Source of the DNA: Microbacteriaceae bacterium
GTDB lineage: Bacteria > Actinomycetota > Actinomycetes > Actinomycetales > Microbacteriaceae
NCBI GenBank assembly: GCA_025465095.1
Contig: JAODME010000013.1
Coordinates: 62,001-126,000, forward strand
Direction of reading: 5' to 3'
DNA length: 64,000 nt
Part shown: one piece after another, positions 24,328-54,542 of the stretch
Layout of the letters: each line of letters opens with the position of its first letter
Position numbering within the stretch: position 1 is the first letter of the stretch
Notes under the pieces: model-generated
The model's database searches: none
What the model saw: only the letters and a program-made list of their open reading frames with translations
Told to the model about the DNA's origin: nothing
Program-made: the position numbers and the translations under genes

Positions 24328-24334
24328 GCCCATT

Positions 24335-24362
24335 CGCGGTCCAGGACGCGCGGTCCAGGACG
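24335..24362 (+). repeat. Two tandem copies of a 14-bp unit
   Basis: CGCGGTCCAGGACG is repeated exactly twice, head to tail, just after the MhuD-like stop codon. It is probably a slippage duplication in non-coding DNA. Confidence 0.8.
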
Positions 24363-24506
24363 ATCGAGCCGGTTCATCGGCCGCTACCAGCGATCCCGGC
24401 ACCCATTGGCGCCGTCGCGCAGGCGCTTGCGCCGTCGAGGACGTTTCTCCGCAGGATCCAACTCTCCGTGCAATCCCCTCACCCCGGTGCGCGCAACAAT
24501 GTACCC

Positions 24507-25514: not shown

Positions 25515-25647
25515 GTTCCCGGGTGGCCACCGTGCCTGCGCTGCAGCCTGACGGCGTCCTTCTCCGCAACCTCGTCGACGGCCTGCAGTCACCAGCTCCA
25601 AAGGCTCACCGGAGGTGCCCGCGGAGTTGCAAGGCAAGCACGCTGCC

Positions 25648-25653
25648 TATGCT
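25648..25653 (+). promoter_or_regulatory. -10 hexamer of cofE
   Basis: TATGCT, 6 nt before the GTG at 25660. TTGCAA at 25627-25632 could serve as -35 with a short 15-bp spacer. Confidence 0.45.
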
Positions 25654-25659
25654 TGGGCT

Positions 25660-31155: not shown

Positions 31156-31188
31156 CCCGGCCTGGGCTTGTATCGGCGTGAATGCCGG

Positions 31189-31194
31189 TACGGT
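31189..31194 (+). promoter_or_regulatory. -10 hexamer of cofC
   Basis: TACGGT, 6 nt before the GTG at 31201; cofC can therefore be transcribed separately from the MoxR operon. Confidence 0.4.
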
Positions 31195-31200
31195 CGACAA

Positions 31201-31815
31201 GTGAGTTGGAGCATCATCATCCCGGTCAAGCGGCTCGATGAGGCGAAGTCGCGGCTTCAGCCGGCGTTGACAGACGTCGCGGAGCTCGCGTTCGCGTTCG
31301 CGTTCGACACAGTGAAGGCGGCACTCGGCTGCGGCTTGGTGGGGGACGTTCTCGTGGTGACGTCCGACTCCCGGGTGGCCGACAGTGTCCGCGCCCTCGG
31401 CGCGGTGGTCATCGACGATCCGGGCGGCGGGTTGAATGCCGCCGTCGCCGCGGGCCTCGCCGCGACCACCGGACCCGTCGCGGTCCTGACGGGCGACCTT
31501 CCCGCCGTGCGTGCGAGCGACCTCCACGATGCTCTGCGTCTGGCCGCCGACGTTCCGCTGGCGATGGTCGCCGACCGGAGCGGGAGCGGCACCACCCTGC
31601 TCGCCAGCGCGGCCGGCTCGATGCATCCCCGATTCGGTGTGTCATCGCGGGAGCTCCACGAGCACGCCGGCCACGTGGTGCTCGATGTGCCCGAAACCTC
31701 GCCGCTGCGGCAGGACGTCGACACCACCGAAGACCTCGACGCGGCAATCCTGTTCGGCGTCGGGCGCGCGACCGCCGCCGTGCTGGCGCGCCGATCGCGA
31801 CCCGCGTCCGCCTGA
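31201..31815 (+). CDS. cofC: Phosphoenolpyruvate/2-phospho-L-lactate guanylyltransferase
   Basis: 204 residues of the CofC/FbiD family, a GT-A-like nucleotidyltransferase. It activates phosphoenolpyruvate (actinobacterial FbiD) or 2-phospholactate with GTP for transfer to Fo. Visible motifs are SIIIPVKRLDEAKSRLQPAL at the N-terminus, DDPGGGLNAAV, LTGDLPAV (metal-binding Asp) and a C-terminal DVDTTEDLDAA. Which three-carbon acid is used cannot be read from sequence. The GTG start is supported by TACGGT 6 nt upstream. It converges on cofD across 85 bp. Confidence 0.92.
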   Translation: MSWSIIIPVKRLDEAKSRLQPALTDVAELAFAFAFDTVKAALGCGLVGDVLVVTSDSRVADSVRALGAVVIDDPGGGLNAAVAAGLAATTGPVAVLTGDLPAVRASDLHDALRLAADVPLAMVADRSGSGTTLLASAAGSMHPRFGVSSRELHEHAGHVVLDVPETSPLRQDVDTTEDLDAAILFGVGRATAAVLARRSRPASA

Positions 31816-31900: not shown

Positions 31901-32875
31901 TCAGCGGAGCCGCTCGGCGAGGGCGACAGCCGCGGCTGCGATCGCCGCCGACGCCTGCACGTCGGTCATCCAGAGGGGAACAGCCTCGGTGCGGATGCCC
32001 GCTTCCTCGAGCTCGGCAACGGAGGCGGCATCCGTCTCATCCACGAGCCATCCGTCAAGCAGTCCGCCCGCCTCCCGCGCCCCGTAGTGCCGCCCGACCG
32101 CGCTCGCCGTGGTGTCGACGCCGATCGCTCGCAGGCACGCGTCGGCCATTCCGCGCACCGCCTGCCCCGCGATGATCGGCGCGATTCCGATCACGGGACC
32201 GCTCGCCGCCCGCACCGCCTCGGTGATACCGGGAATTGCGGTGATCGTGCCGATCGACACTACGGGGTTGGACGGGGCGAACAGCACGATGTCGGCGGTG
32301 CGCAGCGCGTCGAGGGCCTCCTCGGTCGCCGTGGCGGAATCGACGCCGCGGTGGAGAAAACGCCGCGCGGGCACCGAGGCCCGGTGGCGCACCCACCACT
32401 CTTCGAAGTGGATGACGCGCACGGCGCCGGTTTCCGGATCGACGATCTCAACATGCGTCTCGACCTCGTCATCCGTCACCGGTAGCAGCCGCACCCCGAT
32501 ATTCCAGCGGGCGGCGAGGCGAGCGGTCGTCTCGGTGAGCGTGAGCCCGTCGCGGAGCAGCGCTGACCGGGCGATGTGCGTGCCGAGGTCGAGGTCGCCG
32601 AGCGTGAACCACGGCCAGCCGACGCCGTAGGCGGTGAGCTCGGCACTCACCCGCTCCGATTCGCCGACCCGCCCCCAGCCGCGCTGCTCATCGTTCGCCG
32701 CGCCGAGGGTGTACATGATCGAGTCGAGGTCTGGGCACACCCGAAGCCCGGCAAGCCACAGGTCGTCGCCCGTGTTGGCGATCACGCTGATCTCCGCTCC
32801 CGGAAGGTGATGGGCCAGCCCGCGCACAAACCGGGCCCCGCCCACGCCGCCCGCTAACACCGTCACGCGGCTCAT
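31901..32875 (-). CDS. cofD: 2-phospho-L-lactate (or enolpyruvyl) transferase
   Basis: 324 residues. CofD/FbiA transfers the activated three-carbon phosphate onto Fo, giving F420-0 or dehydro-F420-0. The N-terminal VLAGGVGGARFVRGLAHHLP, NTGDDLWLAGLRVCPDLDS and FAPSNPVVSIGTI are hallmark substrate-binding segments. Its ATG overlaps the stop of the upstream ATPase gene (ATGA), so it is translated from the putative F420-0 transporter operon. Cytoplasmic. Confidence 0.94.
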   Translation of the reverse strand: MSRVTVLAGGVGGARFVRGLAHHLPGAEISVIANTGDDLWLAGLRVCPDLDSIMYTLGAANDEQRGWGRVGESERVSAELTAYGVGWPWFTLGDLDLGTHIARSALLRDGLTLTETTARLAARWNIGVRLLPVTDDEVETHVEIVDPETGAVRVIHFEEWWVRHRASVPARRFLHRGVDSATATEEALDALRTADIVLFAPSNPVVSIGTITAIPGITEAVRAASGPVIGIAPIIAGQAVRGMADACLRAIGVDTTASAVGRHYGAREAGGLLDGWLVDETDAASVAELEEAGIRTEAVPLWMTDVQASAAIAAAAVALAERLR

Positions 32876-33666
32876 GTCGCCGGCCCGTCGGGAAGTTCGA
32901 ACACGATCACGGGGGAGCCGGTTCGCGGATGGGCGAGCACGGTCGCCGAGACCCCCCAGACCGATTCGATGAGCTCCGGGGTGAGCACTTCGATGGGGTG
33001 TCCCGCGGCGGCGACCCTGCCCTCGTCGAGCACGACGACCCGGTCGGCGAAGGTGACGGCCAGGTTGAGGTCGTGCAGAGCGGTGACCACCGCGAGGTCG
33101 TTCGCCTGCGCGAGGCGGCGAACGAGAGCGAGGGTGGCCAACTGGGCGCCCACGTCGAGGTGATTGGTCGGCTCGTCGAGGAAGAGCAGGCGCGGTTGCT
33201 GGGCGAGCGCGCGGGCGAGGTGGGCACGCTGGCGCTCCCCGCCGGACAACGTCGAGATCTGCCGGTCGGCGAACGCCGTTATTCCCACGTCGGCGAGTGC
33301 GTCGTCGATGATGGCGGCGTCTTCCGGTGCCGGACCGGCGAACACGGACGCATGCGGGGTGCGCCCGAGCGTCACCGCCATGCGCACGGTGAGCGGGAGT
33401 TCGGCCTGAGCATCCTGCTCCACCAGCGCGGCCTCCCTGGCGCGATCGCGTCGGCTGAGGGCGAACCAGTCCTCGTGCTCCCAGCTGACGCCGCCCGACG
33501 CGGGGCGGTCCACGCCCGCGAGCACCCGGAGGAGGCTCGACTTGCCGGCGCCGTTCGGCCCCAGGATCGCGGTGACGAGGCCCGAGGAGAACTCGGCTCG
33601 AACATCATCGACAACGGTCCTTCCCCCGAGCACCACCGAGATGTTTTGTGCCACCAGGGAGCTCAC
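32872..33666 (-). CDS. Putative F420-0 ABC transporter ATP-binding protein
   Basis: 264 residues with Walker A GPNGAGKSS, signature LSGGERQR, Walker B LLFLDEPTNHLD and an H-loop at TALHDLNLA, close to the FecE/BtuD class that drives uptake of siderophores, haem or B12. Its position directly before cofD, with which it overlaps, and its partner permease and binding protein match a set of families I know as predicted F420-0 transporters (TIGR03868/03869/03873). The substrate is inferred from gene neighbourhood only; a metal chelate is the alternative. GTG start. Confidence 0.88.
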   Translation of the reverse strand: MSSLVAQNISVVLGGRTVVDDVRAEFSSGLVTAILGPNGAGKSSLLRVLAGVDRPASGGVSWEHEDWFALSRRDRAREAALVEQDAQAELPLTVRMAVTLGRTPHASVFAGPAPEDAAIIDDALADVGITAFADRQISTLSGGERQRAHLARALAQQPRLLFLDEPTNHLDVGAQLATLALVRRLAQANDLAVVTALHDLNLAVTFADRVVVLDEGRVAAAGHPIEVLTPELIESVWGVSATVLAHPRTGSPVIVFELPDGPAT

Positions 33667-34730
33667 GAGAACCGCCTCGACCGCATGAGCAGCAGAACGA
33701 ATACCGGGGCGCCGACGATCGCGGTGATGATGCCGACCGGCAGTTCCCGCGGATCGAAGATCGTCCGTGCGGCGGTGTCACACCAGATGAGGAAGATTGC
33801 CCCGGTGAGCGCCGCAAGCGGCAGCAGCGTGCGGTGCCGGGTTCCGACGACCAGCCGCACGGCGTGCGGTAGAACCAGGCCGACGAAGCCGATTGATCCG
33901 CTCACCGCCACCATAGCGCCGGTGAGAAGCGCGGTGCCGATCAGCAGCAGCAGTCGGGTACGCGCCACGTTCACCCCGAGCGCTGCGGCCGAGGTGTCGC
34001 CGAACGCGAAGGCGTCGAGCGCGCGACCGCCGACCATGAGTGGAAGCCCGATCAGCAGCAGGGCACTCCCGGCGATGAACACCGCCGACCAGTCGGCGCC
34101 CGCGAGGGACCCGAGCAGCCACGCGATGATCTCCCGGTAGGAGTCACCCGTCGCAGTCCAGAAGATGACGAAACTCGTGAGGGAGGCGCCGAGGCTCGAC
34201 ACGGCGATGCCAGCGAGAATGGTGCGGCCGGGGGCCAGTGACGAGCCGGCTCCGGCGATCAGCAAGGTCGCGACGAGGGCGACGATCGCGCCGGCGAACG
34301 CGGCCACGGGCAGCAGCACTCCCGCGCCGAGCACGAGCACCGTGACCGCCCCAAGGGAGGCGCCGGAGGAAAGCCCGAGCAGGTACGGGTCGGCGAGGGA
34401 GTTCCGCGTGGTCGCCTGCATCACCGCGCCGGCGATCGCGAGCCCCGCGCCGACCGCGCCGGCGGTCAGCACGCGGGGAAGGCGCAGCTCCCAGACGATG
34501 CCGTCGCGCAGCGCAGAGAGAGGGCTCCCGCCGAGGCCGAGGCGGCTGCCGACGGATGCCCACACTTCGCCGAAACGGATGTCCGCCGGGCCGATCGTGG
34601 TGGCGACCGTGATCGATACCAGAAGCGCGAGGGTGAGCCCGGCCGCAGCGAGCGCAACCCTGGACGGCGCCGGTCTAGTCAAGCTCCAGCGCCGCAAGCT
34701 GGTCGGCGAGATCCGCAGTCGCGGAAACAT
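33663..34730 (-). CDS. Putative F420-0 ABC transporter permease (FecCD type)
   Basis: About 355 residues, eight to ten transmembrane helices, and FecCD/BtuC motifs: LPRVLTAGAVGAGLAIAGAV, RNSLADPYLLGLSSGAS, and GFVGLVLPHAVRLVVGT. The ATG at 34730 has a GGGG stretch 6 nt upstream but overlaps the upstream gene by 56 bp; a TTG at 34682 would shorten it to 339 residues and is the alternative start. It overlaps the ATPase gene by 4 bp. It forms the membrane channel of the predicted F420-0 (or related chelate) importer. Confidence 0.87.
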   Translation of the reverse strand: MFPRLRISPTSLRRWSLTRPAPSRVALAAAGLTLALLVSITVATTIGPADIRFGEVWASVGSRLGLGGSPLSALRDGIVWELRLPRVLTAGAVGAGLAIAGAVMQATTRNSLADPYLLGLSSGASLGAVTVLVLGAGVLLPVAAFAGAIVALVATLLIAGAGSSLAPGRTILAGIAVSSLGASLTSFVIFWTATGDSYREIIAWLLGSLAGADWSAVFIAGSALLLIGLPLMVGGRALDAFAFGDTSAAALGVNVARTRLLLLIGTALLTGAMVAVSGSIGFVGLVLPHAVRLVVGTRHRTLLPLAALTGAIFLIWCDTAARTIFDPRELPVGIITAIVGAPVFVLLLMRSRRFS

Positions 34731-35697
34731 TACGCACCCCGGCCTCGCCCGCCGCGAACGGAACGATCAGGTAGCGGGACTCTCGCACCGCATCGAGGGC
34801 CGCCGTCGCCGGGTTCGCCCGCAGGATCTCGATCTTGCTGTCTGCCGAGTTCCACGAGGCGTCGACGAGCACGATGACATCCGGATCGGCGTCGACGATG
34901 GCCTCCCAGCCGAGGGACGACCACGTGTCATCCACGTCGCCGGCGACATTGCCGAGGCCGAGTCGCTCCATCATCATCTGGGGTGCACCGATGCCGGCGC
35001 CGACATAGGGGATGTCAGTGCCGGAGGAGTACCAGAGGGCCGTGAGTCCACGGTCGTCGGTCGGGATCTCCTCGAGCGCGTCGCGCTGTTCGCTTACGAG
35101 TTCCGTGGCCGCATCGTCGGCATGGAACACGCTGCCCGCCTCGAGGATCTCGTCGAAGACCTCGTCGAAGCTCAACTTCTCGGGCTTGTAGGCGGGGTCC
35201 TTGCACGCCGACGGCGCCACGTAGCTGCCGATTCCGAGTGCCTGGAGCGACTCCCGCTCGCCGGCGGCCTCCGCGGTGAACATCGACTCCCAGCCGGCGA
35301 AGACGAAGTCGGGCTCGAGTTCGAGTACCGCCTCCTGACCGGGCGCGAAGTCAGAGATGATCGGGATTTCGGATGACGCATCGGCCCAGGCGTCCGGCAC
35401 CGGCCCGTCCTGGAAGGCTGAGCCGACGATGCGCTCGCCGAGTCCGAGCGCGAGCAGGAGCTCGGTCGAGGTTGACTTGATGGTCACGATGCGCTCGGGG
35501 GCGTCCGCGGTGATCGCGACGTCCGTGCCGCAGTTGTCGACGACGGACGCGCGAGTTTCGGTGGGCGCATCGATCGGCGCGGATGCGGCGCTCGCGCAAC
35601 CGGTCAGAGCGGCGACGGCGACCACGACGGAGACGACGGCGCCCGTCTGGACGGCGTGGGGCCGCCTCTTCAGGGAACGGTGGAACGACAAACCCAT
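34675..35697 (-). CDS. Putative F420-0 ABC transporter substrate-binding lipoprotein
   Basis: 340 residues with a signal peptide ending in the lipobox LTGC (C34). The mature part is a class III (periplasmic-binding, helical backbone) protein like FepB/BtuF: ERIVTIKSTSTELLLALGLG, then VFAGWESMF in domain 1, and VIVLVDASWN with the final strand ESRYLIVPF in domain 2. It is the first gene of a four-gene operon ending in cofD. The chosen ATG (35697) gives a proper signal peptide; the longer upstream frame would bury it. Ligand (F420-0, Fo or a metal chelate) is inferred from context. Confidence 0.88.
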   Translation of the reverse strand: MGLSFHRSLKRRPHAVQTGAVVSVVVAVAALTGCASAASAPIDAPTETRASVVDNCGTDVAITADAPERIVTIKSTSTELLLALGLGERIVGSAFQDGPVPDAWADASSEIPIISDFAPGQEAVLELEPDFVFAGWESMFTAEAAGERESLQALGIGSYVAPSACKDPAYKPEKLSFDEVFDEILEAGSVFHADDAATELVSEQRDALEEIPTDDRGLTALWYSSGTDIPYVGAGIGAPQMMMERLGLGNVAGDVDDTWSSLGWEAIVDADPDVIVLVDASWNSADSKIEILRANPATAALDAVRESRYLIVPFAAGEAGVRNVSATADLADQLAALELD

Positions 35698-35713
35698 GGG
35701 AACTCCAGCCAAT

Positions 35714-35797
35714 GCGACAGGGAAACCGCCAGCTGACTGCTCGCGGAAGACCTGTCGCCCCAGATCCGGGGCCGACGCACCGCACCACATCCGGTGC
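35714..35797 (-). promoter_or_regulatory. Structured leader of the F420-0 transporter operon
   Basis: Three helices occur in the 100 nt before the lipoprotein start: GCACC/GGTGC (35782-35786 with 35793-35797), GCCCC/GGGGC (35757-35761 with 35768-35772) and an 8-bp helix GCGACAGG/CCTGTCGC (35714-35721 with 35751-35758) enclosing CCGC/GCGG. The last two share a few bases and could be mutually exclusive. It does not match a cobalamin, TPP or FMN riboswitch by eye. Confidence 0.45.
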
Positions 35798-35862
35798 AGG
35801 GGTCTGTTCTTCAACTCTACTCACCTTTGTCGGGCCGGATGGCGAACTGTGCTAGTGGGCTT

Positions 35863-36134: not shown

Positions 36135-36983
36135 TTGACCGTTGTACGAGCAGCAATCACCCAGACGACCTGGACCGGCGACAAAGAGTCGATGATCCAA
36201 AAGCACGAGCAGTTCGCTCGTGAAGCCGCGGCCCAGGGCGCGCAAATCATCTGCTTCCAGGAACTCTTCTACGGGCCGTACTTCGGCATCGTGGAGGACG
36301 CCAAGTACTACGAGTACGCAGAAACGATCCCCGGCCCGACGGTCGAACGATTTCAGGCCCTCGCCAAAGAGCTGAGCCTCGTCATCGTGCTTCCGATCTA
36401 CGAGGAGGCCATGCCCGGCGTGTACTACAACACGGCGGTCGTGATCGATGCCGACGGTACGAACCTCGGCAGCTACCGCAAGCACCACATTCCGAACCTC
36501 GACCGGTTCTGGGAGAAGTTCTACTTCCGGCCCGGCAACCTCGGCTACCCCGTTTTCGACACCGCCGTCGGAAAGGTCGGCGTCTACATCTGCTATGACC
36601 GGCACTTTCCGGAGGGATGGCGCGAACTCGGCTTGAATGGAGCGGAGATCGTCTTCAACCCCTCTGCCACGAAGCCCGGCCTCTCGAATCGCCTGTGGGA
36701 GCTCGAGCAGCCCGCTGCGGCCGCCGCGAACCAGTACTTCATCGGCGCGAACAACCGCGTCGGCACCGAGAGCGGAGAGTTCGGCGACGAGGCCGTCACC
36801 TTCTACGGATCGAGCTACTTCGTCGACCCCCGCGGCAACTACGTCGGGGAGATCGCCAGCACCGACAAGAGTGAGATCGTGATCCGCGACATCGACCTCG
36901 ACACCATCCGCGAGGTACGCAACAACTGGCAGTTCTACCGGGATCGCCGCCCGGACTCCTACGCCGCGACGGTGGCTCCGTAG
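36135..36983 (+). CDS. Nitrilase-superfamily amidohydrolase (beta-ureidopropionase type)
   Basis: 282 residues. The catalytic triad is E43 (CFQELFYGPYF), K116 (YRKHHIPN) and C153 (ICYDRHFPEGWRELG), with the extended HFPEGWR motif seen in carbamoyl-amidases. In context it should hydrolyse N-carbamoyl-beta-alanine to beta-alanine, CO2 and ammonia, the third step of reductive pyrimidine breakdown; N-carbamoylputrescine amidase is the main alternative. The TTG start is supported by AGGAGG 6 nt upstream. It is followed after 16 bp by the dihydropyrimidinase gene. Confidence 0.9.
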   Translation: MTVVRAAITQTTWTGDKESMIQKHEQFAREAAAQGAQIICFQELFYGPYFGIVEDAKYYEYAETIPGPTVERFQALAKELSLVIVLPIYEEAMPGVYYNTAVVIDADGTNLGSYRKHHIPNLDRFWEKFYFRPGNLGYPVFDTAVGKVGVYICYDRHFPEGWRELGLNGAEIVFNPSATKPGLSNRLWELEQPAAAAANQYFIGANNRVGTESGEFGDEAVTFYGSSYFVDPRGNYVGEIASTDKSEIVIRDIDLDTIREVRNNWQFYRDRRPDSYAATVAP

Positions 36984-36999
36984 GGCGGGGGAGGCAGTC

Positions 37000-38451
37000 A
37001 TGGCTACCACGCTCATCAGTGGGGGCACCGTCGTCACCGCGACCGGGCGGAGTGAGGCGGACGTGCTCGTCGATGGCGAGAAGATCGTCGGCGTACTCAC
37101 CCCCGGTTCAGTGCTTCTCGGCTCCGACCTGAGCCGAGCCGTCGATACCGTGATCGACGCGAAGGGCAAGTACGTTATTCCGGGCGGCGTGGACGCGCAC
37201 ACCCACATGGAGTTGCCGTTCGGCGGCACCGCGGCATCCGACACCTTCGAGACCGGCACGAGGGCAGCGGCCTGGGGCGGCACGACGACGATCATCGACT
37301 TCGCCGTGCAGACCTATGGCGAGCGCGTGATGGACGGGCTCGCCGCGTGGCACGACAAGGCGCGCGGCAATTGCGCGATCGACTACGCCTTTCACCAGAT
37401 CATCGGTGATGTGAACGCGGATTCGCTGCAGGCGATGGACGGACTTCTTGACGAGGGCATCTCGAGCTACAAGCTCTTCATGGCCTACCCCGGCGTCTTC
37501 TACTCGGACGACGCGCAGATACTGCGCGCGATGCAGAAGTCGGCAGAGCACGGGCTCATGACGATGATGCACGCCGAGAACGGCCCCGCGATCGACGTTC
37601 TCGTCGAGCAGCTGCTCGCCAAGGGCAAGACCGACCCGTACTACCACGGGGTCGCCCGCGCCTGGCAGATGGAGGAGGAGGCGACCCATCGCGCGATCAT
37701 GCTCGCCAACCTCACCGGCGCCCCGCTCTACGTCGTGCACGTGAGCGCGAAGCAAGCGGTAGAACAGCTCGCCGCCGCCCGCGACGTCGGGCAGAACGTG
37801 TTCGGTGAGACCTGCCCGCAGTACCTGTACCTGTCGCTCGAGGAACAGCTCGGCGGTGCGAGTGACGAGTGGGGGGCGTTCGAGGGGGCGAAGTGGGTGT
37901 GCTCCACACCACTCCGCTCCAAGGCTGAGGGGCATCAGGCGCACATGTGGCAGAGCCTTCGCACCAACGACATCCAGATGGTCTCGACCGACCACTGCCC
38001 GTTCTGCATGAAGGGCCAGAAGGATCTCGGGCTGAGCGACTTCTCGAAGATCCCGAATGGCATCGGCTCTGTGGAGCATCGGATGGACCTGCTCTACCAG
38101 GGCGTCGTCGACGGGCAGATCAGCCTCGAGCGCTGGGTGGAGATCACGTCGACCACGCCGGCGCGCATGTTCGGGCTCTACGGCAGAAAGGGCGTCATCG
38201 CTCCCGGCGCGGACGCCGACATCGTCGTCTACGACCCGAACGGGCACACCTCGATCGGCCTGCCCGTCGACGGGAACGGAAAGAGCCACCACATGAACAT
38301 GGACTACTCCGCCTGGGAGGGCTTCGAGATCGACGGGCACGTCGACACGGTGCTCTCCCGTGGCAAGGTCGTCGTCCACGACAACCAGTATCTGGGCGCC
38401 AAGGGTGACGGTCGGTTCGTCAAGCGTGGCCTCAGCCAGTACCTCATCTGA
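37000..38451 (+). CDS. hydA: Dihydropyrimidinase / D-hydantoinase
   Basis: 483 residues of the cyclic amidohydrolase family. Metal ligands are H67 and H69 (GGVDAHTHMELP), the carbamylated K158 (SSYKLFMAY), His in MMHAENG and YVVHVSAK, and Asp in VSTDHCPF. It opens the ring of 5,6-dihydrouracil or dihydrothymine to the N-carbamoyl amino acid used by the preceding enzyme. Hydantoins are alternative substrates. ATG start with GGGGGAGG upstream. Cytoplasmic tetramer by family. Confidence 0.93.
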   Translation: MATTLISGGTVVTATGRSEADVLVDGEKIVGVLTPGSVLLGSDLSRAVDTVIDAKGKYVIPGGVDAHTHMELPFGGTAASDTFETGTRAAAWGGTTTIIDFAVQTYGERVMDGLAAWHDKARGNCAIDYAFHQIIGDVNADSLQAMDGLLDEGISSYKLFMAYPGVFYSDDAQILRAMQKSAEHGLMTMMHAENGPAIDVLVEQLLAKGKTDPYYHGVARAWQMEEEATHRAIMLANLTGAPLYVVHVSAKQAVEQLAAARDVGQNVFGETCPQYLYLSLEEQLGGASDEWGAFEGAKWVCSTPLRSKAEGHQAHMWQSLRTNDIQMVSTDHCPFCMKGQKDLGLSDFSKIPNGIGSVEHRMDLLYQGVVDGQISLERWVEITSTTPARMFGLYGRKGVIAPGADADIVVYDPNGHTSIGLPVDGNGKSHHMNMDYSAWEGFEIDGHVDTVLSRGKVVVHDNQYLGAKGDGRFVKRGLSQYLI

Positions 38452-38594
38452 TGGGCGCCGCATTCACTCCGCTCGGCGCAGGGTCGCCGAGCACCGGAAA
38501 AGCACCGGATGTACTAAATCACGCCGAGCGCATGGGCGCGAAGGCACACTCTCGCTGCAAGAGCGCACACTCGTCGGAACAGAGGTAGGGCCGC

Positions 38595-39611
38595 ATGGAC
38601 TTCGGAGCAGTACTCCAAACCAACCCGCCCGCCTCGCGCGTGGTGCATCTCGCGAAACTGGCGGAGCAGCACGGTTTCAGCCATGTGTGGACGTTCGACT
38701 CCCACCTGCTCTGGCAGGAGCCTTATGTGATCTACAGCCGGATCCTCGCCGAAACCAACCGGGTCATCGTCGGGCCGATGGTCACCAACCCGGCTACGCG
38801 GGACTGGACCGTGACGGCATCCGTCTACGCGACGCTCAACGAGATGTACGGCAACCGCACGGTGTGCGGCATCGGTCGCGGTGACTCGGCTGTTCGGGTG
38901 ACAGGCGGCGAACCGACAACCCTCAAGTCGCTGCGTGAATCGATCCACGTCATCCGAGAACTGGCGAACAGCCGGGCGGTCGAGTACAACGGCTCGCAGC
39001 TGCAGTTCCCGTGGAGCGTCGGCTCGTCACTCGAAGTCTGGGTGGCGGCGTACGGTCCGCTCGCACTCAAGCTCACCGGTGAGGTCGGCGACGGATTCAT
39101 CCTGCAACTGGCCGACCTCGACATCGCCGAATGGATGATTGCGACGGTGCGTAAAGCGGCGGAGAAGGTCGGCCGTGACCCGGCATCGATCAAGTTCTGT
39201 GTCGCGGCACCGATGTACATAGGCGACGACGTCGCCCACATGCGTGATCAGAGCCGATGGTTCGGCGGAATGGTCGGCAACCACGTCGCCGACATCGTCG
39301 CGAAGTACGGCGAGAGCGGGGCGGTGCCCAAGGCCCTCACCGATTACATCAAGGCACGTGAGGGCTACGACTACAACCAGCACGGGATCGCCGGTAACAC
39401 CCACACCGCCTTCGTCCCCGATGAGATCGTCGAACGGTTCTGCGTTCTCGGCACGGCCGGGCAGCACATCGAGAAGCTCAAAGCTCTGAAGGAGCTAGGC
39501 GTCGACCAGTTCGCCGGCTACCTCCAGCACGACAACAAGGAAGAGACACTGCGGGTCTACGGTGAAACCGTCATCCCGGCGCTGCGCGAACACGTCGTGG
39601 CGAAGGCCTGA
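38595..39611 (+). CDS. LLM-class F420-dependent oxidoreductase (TIGR03842 type)
   Basis: 338 residues of luciferase-like fold: MDFGAVLQTNPPASRVVHLA, FSHVWTFDSHLLWQEPYV, ATRDWTVTASVYATLNEMYG and GIGRGDSAVR match, as I recall, the CPS_4043-like F420 family. It lies 143 bp after the dihydropyrimidinase and 4 bp before the transporter permease, so it belongs to the operon. The catalytic step is not known. The reduction of uracil to dihydrouracil has no other candidate in the cluster, making F420H2-dependent ring reduction a reasonable hypothesis. GAGGTAGG precedes the ATG. Confidence 0.85.
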   Translation: MDFGAVLQTNPPASRVVHLAKLAEQHGFSHVWTFDSHLLWQEPYVIYSRILAETNRVIVGPMVTNPATRDWTVTASVYATLNEMYGNRTVCGIGRGDSAVRVTGGEPTTLKSLRESIHVIRELANSRAVEYNGSQLQFPWSVGSSLEVWVAAYGPLALKLTGEVGDGFILQLADLDIAEWMIATVRKAAEKVGRDPASIKFCVAAPMYIGDDVAHMRDQSRWFGGMVGNHVADIVAKYGESGAVPKALTDYIKAREGYDYNQHGIAGNTHTAFVPDEIVERFCVLGTAGQHIEKLKALKELGVDQFAGYLQHDNKEETLRVYGETVIPALREHVVAKA

Positions 39612-39615
39612 GCCC

Positions 39616-40545
39616 ATGACGACGACGGCGGGAGCGGGGCCCCCGCCGTCGCTGCGCTCCCGTCGAGGCGCCCCCCGACGCGAGCTCGCCCGCTGGGGAC
39701 TCGGAGTGCTCGGCATCATCGTGCTCGCCTCTCTCTGGGAGCTGTACAAGCTGCTCGGCCCCTCCGACGGGCTCGTGCTCGCCGACGCCAGAGTGCTGCC
39801 ACGCACGAGCGACCTCGCCATGCCGCACATCTGGGACATGCTCGCGCGCCTGTCGGAGCCGGTGACACGCGCCGACGGATCGCGTCCGCTGTGGCTCGAG
39901 GTGGCGATCGCAGCCACCGCCACCCTCGGTATCGCCGCAGCCGGCTGGGTCGTCGGACTCGTGGTCGGTGTCGGTCTCGCGCTTGTGATGCAGCGGTGGC
40001 GGCTCGCCGAATGGGGGTTGCTGCCATGGATCGTGCTCAGCCAGACGATTCCCCTGATCGCGTTCGCCCCCGTCGTGCGCAGTTGGGGGGCGAGGGTAGA
40101 GATCGGCTCGTTCGAATGGCAGGACTGGATGTCGGTGGCCTTGATCGCCTCCTACCTCGCGTTCTTCCCCGTCGCGGTCGGCACGCTCAAGGGGCTGCAG
40201 TCGCCCGACGTCATCCACGTCGAACTCATGCGCACCTACGCAGTCGGCTGGTGGAAGACCCTGCTCAGGCTGCGCCTGCCGGCCGCGGTGCCCTACCTGT
40301 TGCCCGCGCTGCGGCTCGCCGCCGCTAACGCCGTGATCGGGGCGATCGTCGCCGAGGTGTCGACGGGTCTGCAGGGCGGCATCGGGCGCATCCTCATCCA
40401 ATACGCCGGGCAGGCCAGCGGCGACCCGTCCAAGGCGTGGGGGCCGATCTTCGGCGCGATCGTGCTCGGGCTCGCCGCCGCCGGGTCGATCGCCGTTCTC
40501 GGCTCAGTGCTCAGGAACTATCGACGGGTGGAGGTTGACGCATGA
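39616..40545 (+). CDS. ABC transporter permease, NitT/TauT (SsuC) type, first
   Basis: 309 residues with six predicted helices after an Arg-rich N-terminus and the EAA loop HVELMRTYAVGWWKTLLRLRLPAAVPYLLPALRLA. The class imports nitrate, taurine, thiamine precursors or pyrimidines. It starts 4 bp after the LLM oxidoreductase stop and overlaps the ATPase gene by 4 bp. A second permease follows, so the channel is probably a heterodimer. The ligand is expected to be a pyrimidine, dihydropyrimidine or hydantoin. Confidence 0.9.
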   Translation: MTTTAGAGPPPSLRSRRGAPRRELARWGLGVLGIIVLASLWELYKLLGPSDGLVLADARVLPRTSDLAMPHIWDMLARLSEPVTRADGSRPLWLEVAIAATATLGIAAAGWVVGLVVGVGLALVMQRWRLAEWGLLPWIVLSQTIPLIAFAPVVRSWGARVEIGSFEWQDWMSVALIASYLAFFPVAVGTLKGLQSPDVIHVELMRTYAVGWWKTLLRLRLPAAVPYLLPALRLAAANAVIGAIVAEVSTGLQGGIGRILIQYAGQASGDPSKAWGPIFGAIVLGLAAAGSIAVLGSVLRNYRRVEVDA

Positions 40546-41405
40546 CGAATACGGGCGACGACGGGGCAGGCAGCTCGGAACGGCCGCGGCCGGCCTCCCC
40601 AGGGACCGCCACTGCGGTGACGGTCACGGGAGTTGACAAGGTCTTCGAGACACGGTCGGGGCAGGTCTCGGCACTGAAGAGGATCGACCTGATCGTCGCG
40701 GCCGGGGAATTCGTCTCCCTCATCGGCCCGTCGGGATGCGGCAAGTCGACGCTCATGCGCCTCATCGCCGACCTCGACCAGCCCACGTCCGGTTCCATCT
40801 CCGTGTTCGGCAAGAGCGCACGCCAGGCCCGGCTCGACCAGGACTACGGCATCGCGTTCCAGCAGTCCGGGCTGCTCCCGTGGCGCACGGTGGCCGCCAA
40901 CATCGAGCTGCCCCTCTCCCTGCACGGTGTCGCGGCGTCCGAACGCAAGTCCCGCGTCGGCGAGTTGATCGAGCTCGTAGGCCTGCGGGACTTCGCCGAC
41001 CGGTATCCCGACCAGCTGTCTGGCGGCATGCAGCAGCGGGTTGCCATCGCGCGGTCGCTCGCCGAGAAGCCGAACCTGCTGCTGATGGACGAGCCGTTCG
41101 GTGCGCTCGACGAGATGACGCGCGAGCGGATGCAATCCGAACTCGTGCGTATCTGCGCCGAGACGAAGGCGGCCGTCGTGTTCGTCACCCACTCCATCCC
41201 CGAGGCGGTGTTCCTCTCCGACCGCGTCGTCGTCATGTCGCCGAGACCAGGACGTGTACAGCAAATCGTGTCGATGCAACTCGCAGCGGACCGCACCGAC
41301 GGACTACGCGAGGAGCACGCGTTCTTCGACATGGTCACCGCCGTTCGGGAGGCACTGCATCAGGGGTCCCCGGTTTCCTCCGTGCGAGGGGTGGAGAACC
41401 GCTGA
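40542..41405 (+). CDS. ABC transporter ATP-binding protein, NitT/TauT type
   Basis: 287 residues: Walker A GPSGCGKST, Q-loop FQQSGLLPWRTVAANIELPL, signature [16 protein letters not shown], Walker B LLLMDEPFGALD, H-loop VTHSIPEAVFLSDRVVVMS. The PWRTV and SIPEAVFLSDR features typify the SsuB/TauB/ThiZ group. Start and stop both overlap neighbouring permeases (ATGA at each end), showing tight coupling. Confidence 0.93.
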   Translation: MTNTGDDGAGSSERPRPASPGTATAVTVTGVDKVFETRSGQVSALKRIDLIVAAGEFVSLIGPSGCGKSTLMRLIADLDQPTSGSISVFGKSARQARLDQDYGIAFQQSGLLPWRTVAANIELPLSLHGVAASERKSRVGELIELVGLRDFADRYPDQLSGGMQQRVAIARSLAEKPNLLLMDEPFGALDEMTRERMQSELVRICAETKAAVVFVTHSIPEAVFLSDRVVVMSPRPGRVQQIVSMQLAADRTDGLREEHAFFDMVTAVREALHQGSPVSSVRGVENR

Positions 41406-42178
41406 TGACGGTGGCCAGGCGACCAGGCGCCGGCGCCGCGAGGGTGCTCGCCCCGATCGTCGTAGGCGCCGTCGTGCTCGGCCTGTGGCAACTCGTGGTC
41501 ACGGTCGGCGGGGTGGACGACTACCTGCTCCCTAGACCGGCAGCGATCCTCGCAGTGGTCGCGGAGATCGCGCCGTCGATGTTGTCGGCGGGCGCGATCA
41601 CGGGACTCAACGCGCTGCTCGGGCTCGTCGTCGGAGCGGCCATCGGAATCCTCGCTGCCCTCGCCGCGTCGTCCATACGAGTCATCGACAACATGATCGC
41701 TCCGATCGTCACGGCGCTCGCCGTGATCCCGATCGTCGCCCTCGCCCCCGTGCTCAACACGATGTTCGGCGCGGACTCCCAGTTCGGGCGGCAGGCGGTC
41801 GCCGGGCTCGCGGCGTTCGTACCGGTGTTCATCAACACGCTGCGGGGACTTCGGCAGACGCTCCCGGTGCACCGCGACCTCATGAGAGCCTACGCGGCGG
41901 GCTCGAGTCAGGTCATGCGCGCTGTCACCCTGCCGACGGCGGCACCGTTCGTGTTCACGGGCATCCGCATCGCCTCATCGCTCGCCGTCATCTCCGCGCT
42001 CGTCGCCGAGTACTTCGGCGGTCCGCGTGGCGGCCTCGGCGGTCTCATCTCCACTTCCGCCGCATCCAGCGCGTACGCGCGTGCCTGGGCCTACGTACTC
42101 GCCGCCATCGTGCTCGGCCTCGCCTTCTATCTCGCAACGCTCGCCATCGAAAGGCTCGCGCTTCGGCGGCGAAGCTGA
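41405..42178 (+). CDS. ABC transporter permease, NitT/TauT type, second
   Basis: 257 residues with six helices and the EAA loop DLMRAYAAGSSQVMRAVTLPTAAPFVFTG-like region near residue 165. It is shorter than the first permease and differs clearly in sequence, so it is not a recent duplicate. The ATG shares a base with the ATPase stop. It completes the channel and is followed after 67 bp by the binding protein. Confidence 0.9.
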   Translation: MTVARRPGAGAARVLAPIVVGAVVLGLWQLVVTVGGVDDYLLPRPAAILAVVAEIAPSMLSAGAITGLNALLGLVVGAAIGILAALAASSIRVIDNMIAPIVTALAVIPIVALAPVLNTMFGADSQFGRQAVAGLAAFVPVFINTLRGLRQTLPVHRDLMRAYAAGSSQVMRAVTLPTAAPFVFTGIRIASSLAVISALVAEYFGGPRGGLGGLISTSAASSAYARAWAYVLAAIVLGLAFYLATLAIERLALRRRS

Positions 42179-42245
42179 CGGCATCCGTCTTCGCGTCCGC
42201 CGGACGGGAAGGTCGCACCACCCGAATAGCAAGGAAAGGACTGAA

Positions 42246-43406
42246 ATGACTCACAGCACTCGTCGCCGCGCGACGATCAGCGCGATCGGCATCACCGCCG
42301 CGCTCGCACTCTCCGCGTGTTCAAGTACTTCCGAGGAGCCCACTGACAGCGGTGATGGCGGGGACGGCGGTGGCGCACTGACCCCGGTCAGCCTGCAGCT
42401 CCAGTGGCTGCCGCAGGGCCAGTTCGCGGGCTATTTCGCGGCGCAGGAGCAGGGCTTCTTCGAGGAAGAGGGTCTGGAGGTCGAGATCATCCCGAGCGGC
42501 GGCGACATCGTTCCGCAGGACGCCCTCGCCAACGGTGACGTCGACTACGCGATCGCCTGGGTACCCAAGGTGCTCGGCTCGATCGAAGCCGGAGCCGACA
42601 TCACCAACATCGCTCAGATCTTCCAGCGTTCCGGCACTCTTCAGGTGGCGTGGGCGGATTCCGGCATCGAGTCCATCAAGGACTTCGAAGGCAAGACGAT
42701 CGGCAGCTGGGGATTCGGAAACGAGTGGGAGATCTTCGCAGCGATGGCCGAGAACGGAGTCGACGCCTCCACCGTCGAGATCATCACCCAGGACTTCAAC
42801 ATGAACGCATTCCTGAGCGGGGACATCGACGCGGCTCAGGCGATGACCTACAACGAGTACGCGCAACTGTTCGAGACGCCGAACCCGGAGACGGGTGAGC
42901 TGTACACCCCGGACGACTTCAACGTCATCGACTACAACGAGACAGGCGGCTCGATGCTGCAGGATGCGATTTGGGCCGACGCGGAACGCATCGCCGACGA
43001 CGAGGAGTACCAGCAGACGACCGTCGCCTTCCTCAAGGCCGTCATCAAGGGTTGGGTCTACGCGAGGGACAACCCCGAGGAGGCATCGGAGATCACGCTG
43101 AACGCGGGGTCCGGCTGGGGCCCGAGCCACGAGCTGTGGATGGTGAACGAGACCAACAAGCTCATCTGGCCCTCACCGAACGGGATCGGAATCATCGACG
43201 AGGAGGAGTGGAACTCCACGGTCGCGCTCTCCCTCGCCACAGTCAACGAGACCGGTGCGCAGATCATCACGGAGGAGCCTCCGGCCACCGCCTGGAGCAA
43301 CGAGTGGATCCAGCAGGCACTCGACCAGTTGACCGAGGAAGGGGTCGACGTGACGGGCGAAGGCTTCGAGCCGATCGAGGTCGAACTGAATGAGGGCGGC
43401 AACTAG
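42246..43406 (+). CDS. NMT1/THI5-like ABC substrate-binding lipoprotein
   Basis: 386 residues with a signal peptide ending in the lipobox LSAC (C25) and a Gly/Asp/Ser linker. The mature domain begins SLQLQWLPQGQFAGYFAAQ, a close match to the ThiY/NMT1 pattern for proteins that bind pyrimidine-like rings; IIPSGGDIVPQDALANGDVD and GKTIGSWGFGNEWEI follow. It starts at ATG with AAGGAAAGG upstream. In this operon it is likely to capture uracil, thymine or a dihydropyrimidine. Confidence 0.92.
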   Translation: MTHSTRRRATISAIGITAALALSACSSTSEEPTDSGDGGDGGGALTPVSLQLQWLPQGQFAGYFAAQEQGFFEEEGLEVEIIPSGGDIVPQDALANGDVDYAIAWVPKVLGSIEAGADITNIAQIFQRSGTLQVAWADSGIESIKDFEGKTIGSWGFGNEWEIFAAMAENGVDASTVEIITQDFNMNAFLSGDIDAAQAMTYNEYAQLFETPNPETGELYTPDDFNVIDYNETGGSMLQDAIWADAERIADDEEYQQTTVAFLKAVIKGWVYARDNPEEASEITLNAGSGWGPSHELWMVNETNKLIWPSPNGIGIIDEEEWNSTVALSLATVNETGAQIITEEPPATAWSNEWIQQALDQLTEEGVDVTGEGFEPIEVELNEGGN

Positions 43407-43421
43407 CATCACCGCCTAGTG

Positions 43422-43506
43422 TGAGTGGAGGTCGCCGGTCGTCGTGATGTCAATTCGACAGGACACCATCGCGAACCGATAGGCCCAAAACGGCGACCTC
43501 CACTCA
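43422..43506. repeat. 85-bp element bounded by a 16-bp perfect inverted repeat
   Basis: TGAGTGGAGGTCGCCG (43422-43437) and CGGCGACCTCCACTCA (43491-43506) are perfect inverse complements around 53 bp, whose inner part can extend the stem imperfectly (GGTCGTCGTGATG against CACCATCGCGAACC). It sits between the binding-protein and aminotransferase genes. It could be a small non-autonomous repeat element or an attenuator. There is no T tract and no obvious flanking duplication. Confidence 0.75.
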
Positions 43507-43530
43507 TCGGCCCACGACGGCGAGGACAAC

Positions 43531-44880
43531 ATGAGCACCACGATCGATCCAAACACCGCGACCGACGGCGATCTCGCCTACGACCTCGACCGGGCACACG
43601 TGTTCCACTCCTGGTCCGCGCAGGGGGCGCTCAAGCCCTTCGTCATCGCCGGAGGTCTGGCCTCCGAGGTGTGGGACTACGACGGTCGAACCTACCTCGA
43701 CTTCTCCAGTCAGCTCGTCAACGTCAACATCGGCCACCAGCATCCGAAGGTCGTCGCCGCGATCAAGGAACAGGCCGACATGCTCACGACGGTGGCACCG
43801 CCGCACGCGAACCTCGCACGCGGGCAGGCTGCGAAGCGGATTCTCGAGAAAGCCGGACCCAGCTTCGGCAAGGTGTTCTTCACCAACGGCGGCGCCGACG
43901 CGAATGAGAACGCAATTCGGATGGCGCGGCTCGTCACGGGGCGCGACAAGGTGCTGTCGACGTACCGCTCGTACCACGGCAACACGGGTGCCGCGATCGT
44001 CGCCACCGGTGACTGGCGTCGGATGCCCAACGAGTACTCGCGCGGCCACGCGCACTTCTTCGGGCCGTTCGCCTACCGCTCCGAGTTCTGGTCGAGCTCT
44101 CCGGAGCAGGAGGGGGAACGGGCGCTGCACCATCTCGCGCGCGTGGTCCAGTCCGAGGGACCGTCGACGATCGCAGCGATCCTGCTCGAGACGGTGCCGG
44201 GAACGGCCGGGGTGCTCGTGCCGCCGCCCGGATATCTCGCGGGCGTTCGGGCGCTGTGCGACGAGCACGGAATCAAGCTAATCCTCGACGAGGTCATGTG
44301 CGGCTTCGGTCGCACCGGGGAGTGGTTCGCCTTCCAGGCCGACTTCGGGAACGGGCACACTGAGGCCATTCCGGATCTCGTCACCTTCGCGAAGGGGGTC
44401 AACTCCGGTTATGTCCCAGTCGGCGGCGTCGCGATCTCCGCCGAGATCGTCCGCGAGTTCGACGATCGGGTGTTCCCCGGCGGGCTCACCTACTCCGGGC
44501 ATCCGCTCGCCGCCTCATCGATCGTCGCTTCGATCGACGCGATGGACGAGGAGGGGATCATCGACAATGCGCGGATGATCGGCGCCGACCACCTACGCCC
44601 CGGGCTCGCCACGCTTGCCGAGAAGCACCCGATGGTCGGCGAGGTGCGCGGGCTCGGTGTCTTCTGGGCGCTCGACCTCGTCGCGGATGAGGTCGCACGC
44701 ACGCCGGTGACCGCCGCGGTAATCGGGCAGCTCAAGACCGAGCTCATGCAGCGTGGGCTGCTGCCCTTTGCCGCCGACAACCGCATTCACGTCGTGCCAC
44801 CGTGCGTGGTCACTCCAGACGAGATCGCTCGGGCGCTCGTCATCTATGACGAGGCGTTCACCGCCGTCGAGAACGGTTGA
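43531..44880 (+). CDS. Class III aminotransferase (beta-alanine type)
   Basis: 449 residues, PLP-dependent. The PLP lysine is K288 in TFAKGVNSGYVP, with ILDEVMCGFGRTG (cofactor-binding Asp) ahead of it and VFFTNGGADANENAIRMAR near residue 115. Class III enzymes act on omega-amino groups; after the upstream steps the natural substrate would be beta-alanine or 3-aminoisobutyrate, giving malonate or methylmalonate semialdehyde. The amino acceptor is not predictable. It lies 25 bp past the inverted repeat. No semialdehyde dehydrogenase follows. Confidence 0.9.
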   Translation: MSTTIDPNTATDGDLAYDLDRAHVFHSWSAQGALKPFVIAGGLASEVWDYDGRTYLDFSSQLVNVNIGHQHPKVVAAIKEQADMLTTVAPPHANLARGQAAKRILEKAGPSFGKVFFTNGGADANENAIRMARLVTGRDKVLSTYRSYHGNTGAAIVATGDWRRMPNEYSRGHAHFFGPFAYRSEFWSSSPEQEGERALHHLARVVQSEGPSTIAAILLETVPGTAGVLVPPPGYLAGVRALCDEHGIKLILDEVMCGFGRTGEWFAFQADFGNGHTEAIPDLVTFAKGVNSGYVPVGGVAISAEIVREFDDRVFPGGLTYSGHPLAASSIVASIDAMDEEGIIDNARMIGADHLRPGLATLAEKHPMVGEVRGLGVFWALDLVADEVARTPVTAAVIGQLKTELMQRGLLPFAADNRIHVVPPCVVTPDEIARALVIYDEAFTAVENG

Positions 44881-51769: not shown

Positions 51770-53440
51770 TCAGTACTGCCGCGTGTCGGGCTCTCGAACG
51801 ACCCGAAGCCAGCGGTGGCCATAGCCCTCCAACGGTATCCGGGCCTGTCCATCATCCGTCAGGGACATGACCTCGCCGCTCAGCAGGTCGTTGAGTTGCG
51901 ACTTCCCGGTGTCCTTGAGCAGGATGGGCACGTCGGCGGGCTCCGACCCGAGATTGTGCAGGGCGACCAAGCGCCCGTCACCCCAGACGAGCGTGTGTGC
52001 GAGCACCGCCGGTCGAGGTTGCTCGAGGATCTCGAAGGCGCCCCAACCGAACTCCGGCGAATTGCGGTAGTGGCGGATGAGCCTCCGGATGAAGCTCAGC
52101 AGAGAATCCGGATCGCGCCGTTGGGTTTGAACATTCACGTGGGACGGCCCGAATCCGCCCTCCACGACGGGGCTGACGAGGTCGGCTGGTGCCGCATCCG
52201 AGAACCCGCCGTTCCTTCCCGGATTCCACTGCATGGGCGTACGCACGGCCATGCGGCCCTTCTGTTCGAGGTCCTCGCCCATCCCGATCTCCTCCCCATA
52301 GAAGAGAACGGGGGTGCCCGGCAGCGAGAAGAGCAGGCTGTAGAGCATCCGGATCCGGCGCGGGTCGCCGGCGAGCATGGGAGGCACGCGCCGGACCAGT
52401 CCGCGTCCGTACACCTGCATCCGCTCCTCCGGTCCGAACGCCGCGAACACCTCGGCGCGCTCGTCCTCGCTCAACTTGTCGAGGGTCAACTCGTCGTGGT
52501 TGCGCGCGAAGTTCGCCCACTGCGAGTCCGGCGACCCGTCGGGGCGGGACTGCAGCGCCTCGACCAGCGGGCCGGCATCCTCGCGGGCGAGCGACAGATA
52601 CATCTTCTGCATGCCGATGAAGTCGAACTGCATCGTCAGTTCGTCTCCGTCCGCGCCGCCGAAGAACACGGATTGCTCCTCGCGCGGAAGGTTCACCTCG
52701 CCGAGCAGTACCCCGTCGCCGGAACGGCGGCCGAGGAAGGCGCGCAGCGACCGCAGGTAGGCGTGCGGGTCTGGCAACAGGTTGTCGCCGCCCATCACTG
52801 CCTCGGTTTCGAGGAGGAACGGCACCGCGTCGACCCGGAAACCGGACATACCCAGCTGTATCCAGAATCCCAGGATCTTCGCGATCTCGTCTCGCACGAC
52901 CGGATTCGTCACATTCAGGTCAGGCTGGTGCTTGTAGAAGACATGCTGGTAGTACTGCTTGGTCTTCTTGTCGTACTCCCAGTTGCTCGTCTCCTCGTCG
53001 GGAAAGACGGGCTCGCGCTGTTCCTTCGGCGGCTCGTCGCGCCAGACGTAGTAGTCCCGAAAAGGCGAGTCCCTGCTGGACCGCGCCGAGAGGAACCACG
53101 GATGCTGGTCGGAGGTGTGATTGATTACGAGGTCGGCAATCACCCGCATTCCACGGTCGTTCGCGGTGCGGATCACCTCGACCAAATCGCCGAGATGGCC
53201 GAGTCTCGAATCCACAGCGTAGAAGTCCGTGATGTCGTAGCCGTCGTCGCGATCCGGGGTCGGATAGAACGGCATGAGCCAAAGGCAGGTGATCCCGAGC
53301 TCGGCCAGATAGTCGAGACGGTTGGCGACGCCCTCGAGGTCGCCGATCCCGTCGTTGTTCCAGTCCATGAACGTCTCGACGTCCAGGCAGTAGACGACCG
53401 CCGATTTCCACCAGAGGTCGCTCGTCTCGGTGATACTCAT
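51770..53440 (-). CDS. GH13 alpha-amylase-family protein (trehalose-synthase-like)
   Basis: 556 residues of a TIM-barrel GH13 glycosidase or transglycosidase. The start WWKSAVVYCLDVETFMDWN resembles trehalose synthases, and catalytic residues are D204 (GFRVDAVPF), E248 (GEVNLP) and D316 (NHDELTL), all present. ADLVINHTSDQHPWF is region I. It lacks a signal peptide, so it acts on intracellular alpha-glucans or maltose/trehalose. YCLDVETF replaces the YxxxxxSF motif of true TreS, so activity may differ. Its ATG overlaps the stop of an LLM oxidoreductase, a coupled pair. Confidence 0.9.
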   Translation of the reverse strand: MSITETSDLWWKSAVVYCLDVETFMDWNNDGIGDLEGVANRLDYLAELGITCLWLMPFYPTPDRDDGYDITDFYAVDSRLGHLGDLVEVIRTANDRGMRVIADLVINHTSDQHPWFLSARSSRDSPFRDYYVWRDEPPKEQREPVFPDEETSNWEYDKKTKQYYQHVFYKHQPDLNVTNPVVRDEIAKILGFWIQLGMSGFRVDAVPFLLETEAVMGGDNLLPDPHAYLRSLRAFLGRRSGDGVLLGEVNLPREEQSVFFGGADGDELTMQFDFIGMQKMYLSLAREDAGPLVEALQSRPDGSPDSQWANFARNHDELTLDKLSEDERAEVFAAFGPEERMQVYGRGLVRRVPPMLAGDPRRIRMLYSLLFSLPGTPVLFYGEEIGMGEDLEQKGRMAVRTPMQWNPGRNGGFSDAAPADLVSPVVEGGFGPSHVNVQTQRRDPDSLLSFIRRLIRHYRNSPEFGWGAFEILEQPRPAVLAHTLVWGDGRLVALHNLGSEPADVPILLKDTGKSQLNDLLSGEVMSLTDDGQARIPLEGYGHRWLRVVREPDTRQY

Positions 53441-54405: not shown

Positions 54406-54530
54406 TTTCGTACCTCCAGCTTCGACCCTACTTATTCTTCTCGCGGCGTTGTCCCTTTTTTCGGGCCTCCTTCCGGCAAGGACAGCAGCCGCCAGGTGGC
54501 CGTCCGGCGCGAACCCGTGCTCTGCGCAAT

Positions 54531-54536
54531 TAGGCT
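54531..54536 (+). promoter_or_regulatory. -10 hexamer of ftsY
   Basis: TAGGCT, 6 nt before the ftsY ATG; leaderless transcript predicted. Confidence 0.45.
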
Positions 54537-54542
54537 GGCGGA

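Follow-up and report, generated by a model that had tools for sequence, protein, structure and literature searches.

The window analysed here (64,000 nucleotides of contig JAODME010000013.1, positions 62,001 to 126,000 of the forward strand, from the Microbacteriaceae assembly GCA_025465095.1) contained an operon of eight genes, all on the plus strand at 36135–44880, in which a protein of the luciferase-like monooxygenase (LLM) fold was encoded beside enzymes of reductive pyrimidine breakdown. This protein belonged to the family TIGR03842 and, judging from the genomes compared below, the family is most likely an F420H2-dependent uracil/thymine reductase, forming dihydropyrimidines in place of PydA/PreTA. 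A first-pass annotation of this DNA had already suggested that the LLM protein reduces uracil or thymine with F420H2; as an interpretation, this gained support from the lack of PydA, from the coupling of genes within the bacterial family, from an F420 gene cassette in Proteobacteria and from a dihydropyrimidinase operon in Leisingera.

Every gene that the annotation had named was present where it had been placed, and profile matches confirmed a nitrilase-type amidohydrolase, a dihydropyrimidinase, an LLM protein, an NMT1-like importer and an omega-aminotransferase running in one direction. The operon began with a nitrilase-superfamily amidase (36135–36983; CN_hydrolase, PF00795, 230.6 bits), a proposed N-carbamoyl-beta-alanine decarbamoylase; its membership of the superfamily was clear and no equivalog model reached its own cut-off, the best NCBIfam match being to N-carbamoylputrescine amidase (TIGR03381, 257 bits, under a cut-off of 410). 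There followed a dihydropyrimidinase of the D-hydantoinase family (37000–38451; TIGR02033, 533 bits, cut-off 393) and the LLM gene, the candidate reductase (38595–39611; TIGR03842, 588.5 bits, cut-off 295.45, matching positions 1–329 of 329). Downstream lay a proposed pyrimidine importer, comprising an ABC permease (39616–40545; PF00528) with its ATG four bases past the LLM stop codon, an ATPase (40542–41405; PF00005), a second permease (41405–42178; PF00528) and an NMT1/THI5-like substrate-binding protein (42246–43406; PF09084, 138.6 bits); the starts of both permeases and of the binding protein were chosen by the authors from sequence context. The last gene encoded a class III (omega) aminotransferase (43531–44880; PF00202), a proposed beta-alanine/beta-aminoisobutyrate transaminase, which matched NF004718/PRK06062 (712 bits, cut-off 472), a family described merely as a hypothetical protein.

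The annotation had seen no PydA, and would have given up its proposal had a copy been present elsewhere in the genome. The assembly (2.45 Mb, 41 contigs, 97.7% complete) contained a single DHO_dh protein (E ≤ 0.001), the quinone-dependent PyrD, and the PreA search of this genome (G000) gave no match at E ≤ 1e-30; on both counts, the idea of a PydA hidden elsewhere was rejected.

In NCBIfam, TIGR03842 (CPS_4043) is a hypothetical equivalog without a named function. At E ≤ 1e-5 the LLM protein showed a single domain, Bac_luciferase, and no DHO_dh. Nineteen NCBIfam families matched the protein at the same threshold; RutA was not among them, in a library that may hold no RutA model, and the match to the Mer model TIGR03555 (134 bits) was below its cut-off of 348.7. 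The nearest solved relative by sequence was Mer (4.8e-36), the F420-dependent methylene-tetrahydromethanopterin reductase. An AF2 model (pLDDT 87.4), built with 35 of the aligned proteins, was compared with known structures by VIA-align, where rows 1–15 were all F420 enzymes (Z 28.4–35.5), Mer being first (Z 34.4–35.5, 23–30% identity; 317 residues at 2.7 A for the top match). The first flavin mononucleotide (FMN) enzyme, at Z 28.1, was within 1 of row 15 and far under Mer; RutA scored 24.9, with 15% identity. By Foldseek, F420 enzymes took ranks 1–11, and the FMN enzyme SfnG appeared at rank 12, among F420 enzymes. As modelled, therefore, the fold is nearer to F420 enzymes than to FMN enzymes. 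An RutA-like monooxygenase was considered and rejected, because the structure was nearer to F420 enzymes and the gene was coupled to F420 genes. Among 157 LLM-family proteins, 54 alignment columns were identical (53 besides the start methionine), including N229, H230, R255, Y258, Y260 and D97, with the last of which Asp96 of Mer aligned, and their tree fell into two clades at midpoint rooting, with 75 actinobacterial-type and 82 proteobacterial members; identical columns and clades together were as expected of one conserved function.

Within the same bacterial family, 150 genomes were each searched for LLM, CofD, PydA/PreA, the importer binding protein, FO synthase and dihydropyrimidinase. The co-occurrence foreseen by the annotation was strongly borne out. 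The LLM protein was found in 72 genomes (43 of 85 when counted by genus) and dihydropyrimidinase also in 72 (71 over cut-off, with G124 below it), and 70 genomes had both. The two genes were no more than 268 bp apart in 69 of the 72 LLM-positive genomes, an arrangement that is therefore beyond chance. Only G099 and G101 had LLM without dihydropyrimidinase, the LLM gene there being less than 900 bases from the contig start, and only G051 and G100 had dihydropyrimidinase without LLM. Where 1.5 kb was read to each side of LLM, dihydropyrimidinase was present at 30 of 30 loci; the operon was also seen at the longer loci (L044–L063), some of them lacking parts of it. PydA/PreA was over cut-off in none of the 150 genomes, which gave two weak matches only.

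CofD was present in 68 genomes (66 over cut-off; two, G009 and G099, were fragments), of which 58 also had LLM and 10 did not; in 49 of these 58 the distance from cofD to LLM was at most 20 kb, in 8 the two were on different contigs and in 1 they were far apart. FO synthase was matched in 32 genomes, with just 9 of the matches passing the CofH cut-off. The binding protein of a putative F420-0 importer was matched in 64 genomes at E ≤ 1e-20 and was over cut-off in 46; it was counted as 49 after adding G119 (328 bits) and the two-piece matches of G022 and G049, and 15 weaker matches (87–233 bits) were dropped as likely to be other siderophore-type binding proteins. On this count, each of the 72 LLM-positive genomes had a deazaflavin source, FO synthase in 29 and the importer in 43; three of these importers were partial or under the cut-off, and subtracting them would leave 69 of 72 with a source. 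Among LLM-negative genomes, 69 of 78 had neither, or just 58 if the 15 weak importers are added, in which case four genomes would have an importer-like protein together with FO synthase. With common descent ignored, Fisher tests of LLM gave p = 1e-17 for CofD, p = 4e-33 for FO synthase or importer and p = 9e-38 for dihydropyrimidinase. As counted, the putative importer (49 of 150) and FO synthase (32 of 150) never co-occurred, a split between importing and making the deazaflavin.

This gene partnership recurred in distant bacteria, in Proteobacteria as well as in the family of this genome. A search of plasmids brought up Leisingera caerulea and Paracoccus alcaliphilus. In the former, cofG-cofH-cofD-cofC-cofE-npdG-LLM was divergent from pntA-pntB-aminotransferase-M20 hydrolase-dihydropyrimidinase-NCS1 permease, and its proteins passed the cut-offs for AptA omega-aminotransferase, hydantoinase/carbamoylase family amidase, dihydropyrimidinase, NCS1 symporter and NpdG. 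The cof-npdG-LLM cassette was shared by Paracoccus alcaliphilus, which also had an ABC importer; in the 25 kb read there, dihydropyrimidinase was not seen. Both Paracoccus and Leisingera had a DUF1330 protein annotated close to this cassette (L041, 6083–6373; L145, 11287–11580). Two LLM proteins, themselves beside cof genes, were the seed for a set of 80 loci, the best 80 of 100 matches, some of them incomplete. LLM was accompanied by cofG/H/D/E in 73 of the 80, which may overstate the linkage because both seed proteins adjoin cof genes, and by npdG in 70; carbamoylase was present in 46, NCS1 in 36 and dihydropyrimidinase in 30. PreA/PreT was beside LLM in none of the 80. At five loci from Roseibium, Rhizobium and Aquimixticola (L090, L092, L094, L096 and L106), the cof genes accompanying LLM followed another, divergent arrangement, and their products shared only 32–56% identity with the Leisingera proteins. 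This suggests that recruitment took place a second time. One locus (L065) was titled Nocardioides marinus DP1N28-1 among otherwise proteobacterial titles; its LLM was 98% identical to that of Leisingera and it is probably mislabelled. PydA was sought in 48 genomes, representing 50 of the 80 loci, and in 37 of these, Paracoccus denitrificans DSM 413 among them, there was none over cut-off.

In a sample of 296 genomes from the phylum, each at least 90% complete, LLM was found in 62 and CofD in 170, with 59 in common. PydA was present in two, neither of which had LLM; one PreA match in this sample (G378:C37:2341-3522) carried a single in-frame TAG. Outside the family, 23 LLM loci were read, and in 18 of these dihydropyrimidinase and one decarbamoylase adjoined LLM. 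The decarbamoylase was of nitrilase type at 13 of the 23 and of M20 type at 7, never both, and the importer was NMT1-ABC at 9 and NCS1 at 8. Across these loci the pathway steps were constant and the proteins filling them varied.

Within the window, the claim that fgd and cof genes lay within 15 kb of the operon held for fgd, cofE, cofC and cofD. Fgd, an F420-dependent glucose-6-phosphate dehydrogenase and the likely F420 reducer (21061–22170, plus strand; TIGR03554, 648 bits, cut-off 420), ended 14 kb ahead of the operon. The F420-0:gamma-glutamyl ligase CofE (25615–26415, plus; PF01996, 171.9 bits), the guanylyltransferase CofC (31168–31815, plus; TIGR03552, 141 bits, cut-off 105; PF01983) and the 2-phospho-L-lactate transferase CofD (31901–32875, minus; TIGR01819, 340 bits, cut-off 257; PF01933) followed. 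Two features had been absent from the annotation. One was a set of three minus-strand genes between cofD and the operon (32872–35814), whose best matches were the three NCBIfam models of a putative F420-0 ABC importer: an ATPase (32872–33666; TIGR03873, 349 bits, below the cut-off of 372 and still the best family), a permease (33663–34730; TIGR03869, 489 bits, cut-off 437) and a binding protein (open reading frame 34675–35814, matched from residue 91; TIGR03868, 453 bits, cut-off 392). Thus two of the three subunits, the binding protein and the permease, passed their cut-offs. The other was the lack of FO synthase, for which the CofH search of this genome gave no candidate. The organism probably imports FO or another deazaflavin precursor, the presumed cargo of the transporter, and completes F420 itself with CofC/D/E.

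Two more LLM proteins lay near the operon, one of TIGR03885 type (53437–54558, minus; 483 bits) and one of the TIGR03557 family (24291–25514, plus; 278 bits). The genome contained six LLM proteins besides that of the operon (L003–L008, E ≤ 0.001), of which L003 and L004 were fgd and the gene at 24291–25514 and L005 was that at 53437–54558. The operon LLM, L007 and L008 were named by families other than RutA, and L006 had no family at E ≤ 1e-40; no genome search aimed at RutA was made.

The proposed pathway would run as follows. Uracil or thymine would enter through the NMT1-type ABC importer, and the LLM protein would pass a hydride directly from F420H2 to the C5=C6 bond, reducing it to give a dihydropyrimidine. 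Dihydropyrimidinase would open the ring, after which the nitrilase-type amidase would release ammonia and CO2, and the aminotransferase would deaminate the resulting beta-alanine or beta-aminoisobutyrate. Here Fgd may restore F420H2, a task that in Leisingera-type clusters would fall to NpdG, which depends on NADPH and would be supplied by PntAB. A deazaflavin precursor would be imported through the transporter beside cofD, and F420 finished by CofC/D/E. F420 binding and the direction of the reaction are presumed in this scheme, and the gene content does not tell uracil from thymine or another pyrimidine.

Several observations weigh against a pyrimidine reductase dependent on F420. Glu6 of Mer, an active-site residue (the title of 8qq8 names the mutant E6Q), was not conserved, its place (position 6) being taken by V, T or C across the 157 proteins; together, the conserved D97 and the lost Glu6 would fit a Mer-like cofactor site with another substrate. 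The co-occurrence counts ignore shared ancestry, and the 15 weak importer-like matches came from 11 genomes without LLM and 4 with FO synthase. No dihydropyrimidinase was seen in the stretch read at 5 of the 23 phylum loci: L160 and L170 had a decarbamoylase and a transporter, L163 had just the importer, an M20 match at a distance of 9 kb being left uncounted, and L166 and L167 had no pathway gene at all. The last two belong to one family of the phylum sample (f33). In Proteobacteria, within the stretch read, 23 of the 80 loci had cof genes and lacked dihydropyrimidinase, carbamoylase, aminotransferase and NCS1 alike, and the cof/LLM pair of Roseibium L090 adjoined mevalonate-type genes. Finally, 14 LLM-positive genomes of the family lacked CofD. 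That these do not need F420 is disfavoured, since the importer was present in all 14, cofE in 3 of the 14 loci read, and their LLM proteins formed no clade of their own, having a common ancestor that spanned 50 tips. These genomes are better explained if cofD was lost and a precursor from a later step is imported. The three loci that retained cofE near the operon (L047, L048 and L050) would fit import of F420-0 itself.

A further objection was that PydA occurred elsewhere in 11 of the 48 proteobacterial genomes searched (Leisingera, Epibacterium, Tritonibacter, Thalassovita, Limimaricola and Shimia). In three of these dual genomes (loci L176, L177 and L178), PreTA took the place of LLM beside a carbamoylase, a dihydropyrimidinase and an NMT1 importer homologous to that of the window (binding protein 33–35% identical). 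PreTA and LLM therefore seem able to fill the same operon slot; equally, because PydA has its own carbamoylase and dihydropyrimidinase there, the LLM pathway would be either redundant in such genomes or directed at another substrate. LLM might reduce some other pyrimidine-like ring (a methylated, hydroxylated or N-substituted pyrimidinone) that dihydropyrimidinase then opens, leaving uracil to PydA where it is present, and the breadth of the NMT1-type binding protein family would allow this. We consider it unlikely, given that PydA was not over cut-off in 37 of the 48 proteobacterial genomes, nor in any of the 72 LLM-positive genomes of the family, and that NCS1 permease and omega-aminotransferase suit ordinary pyrimidines.

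Two further explanations would remove the LLM protein from pyrimidine reduction altogether. The cluster could degrade hydantoins, allantoin or imported dihydropyrimidines with LLM as an unrelated passenger, for enzymes of the D-hydantoinase family open hydantoins and dihydropyrimidines alike, and the M20 hydrolase of Leisingera was matched best by a model named allantoate amidohydrolase, a point also to be held against a pyrimidine pathway. This seems very improbable: the ring-opening enzymes passed the dihydropyrimidinase cut-off and missed that for allantoinase, LLM and dihydropyrimidinase shared 70 of the 72 genomes that had each, and a passenger would not track cofactor supply as LLM did in 72 of 72. 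The annotation had itself offered uptake of hydantoins or dihydropyrimidines as an alternative, which leaves the retention of an F420 enzyme unexplained. Slightly less probable still is that LLM works as a dehydrogenase reducing F420 for use by other enzymes, its link with pyrimidine genes being regulatory. Fgd has the same fold, and LLM is the last gene of the cof operon in Leisingera and Paracoccus; however, a reducer was already present both in that operon (npdG) and in the window (Fgd), and in the family surveyed the LLM gene was inside the pyrimidine operon.

A uracil/thymine reductase of TIGR03842 can be compared with several known systems. PydA/PreTA, which depends on NAD(P)H or ferredoxin, resembles it in the reaction proposed and in its neighbours (dihydropyrimidinase, carbamoylase and NMT1 importer), but is an unrelated protein, and the hydride donor of LLM would instead be F420H2. 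Mer has the closest solved fold and shares the aspartate at D97, but differs at Glu6. RutA, an FMN-dependent uracil monooxygenase according to its entry titles, also applies the LLM fold to uracil; its chemistry is oxidative, and its structural match was the weaker. Two proteins are similar by description only. In one study, an F420-type luciferase-family protein in uric acid clusters of Chloroflexota was proposed as a 'yanthine reductase', replacing YgfK or the PydA-like UacX beside a ring-opening amidohydrolase (PMC12507026); its substrate, unlike that proposed here, is derived from purine. Another describes SSGG-03002/NpsU, a putative F420/FMN-dependent oxidoreductase that reduces the uracil C5-C6 bond in mureidomycin, as judged from genetics and nuclear magnetic resonance, for which its authors detected no product in vitro (PMC10714638); this differs in serving antibiotic biosynthesis. 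In the portions of the open-licence literature searched, no description was found of an F420-dependent uracil reductase in catabolism.

As read from these genomes, the F420-dependent LLM route would be a variant of the known reductive pyrimidine pathway. If correct, it would give a function to TIGR03842, a widespread and unnamed enzyme family, and would account for the first step of the reductive pyrimidine pathway where it has been missing, in bacteria with dihydropyrimidinase and no PydA. In Mycobacterium smegmatis, the genes of the reductive uracil pathway are stated not to have all been identified (PMC4617892). An iron-sulfur flavoenzyme would have been replaced by a small, single-chain deazaflavin enzyme. 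A review on F420 treats the reason why Proteobacteria make it as unanswered, and states that Paracoccus denitrificans was found to contain only traces (PMC8498797); the reductase would bear on both. More tentatively, and with the odds slightly against so broad a statement, pyrimidine reduction may be one of the main purposes for which many aerobic bacteria make F420 or scavenge it, with Proteobacteria carrying the F420 pathway as a travelling cassette together with the reductase, and with many members of the family of this genome having given up FO synthase, and some cofD, to import a deazaflavin. The same reading suggests that many members of this family take up F420, or a precursor of it, as a shared resource.

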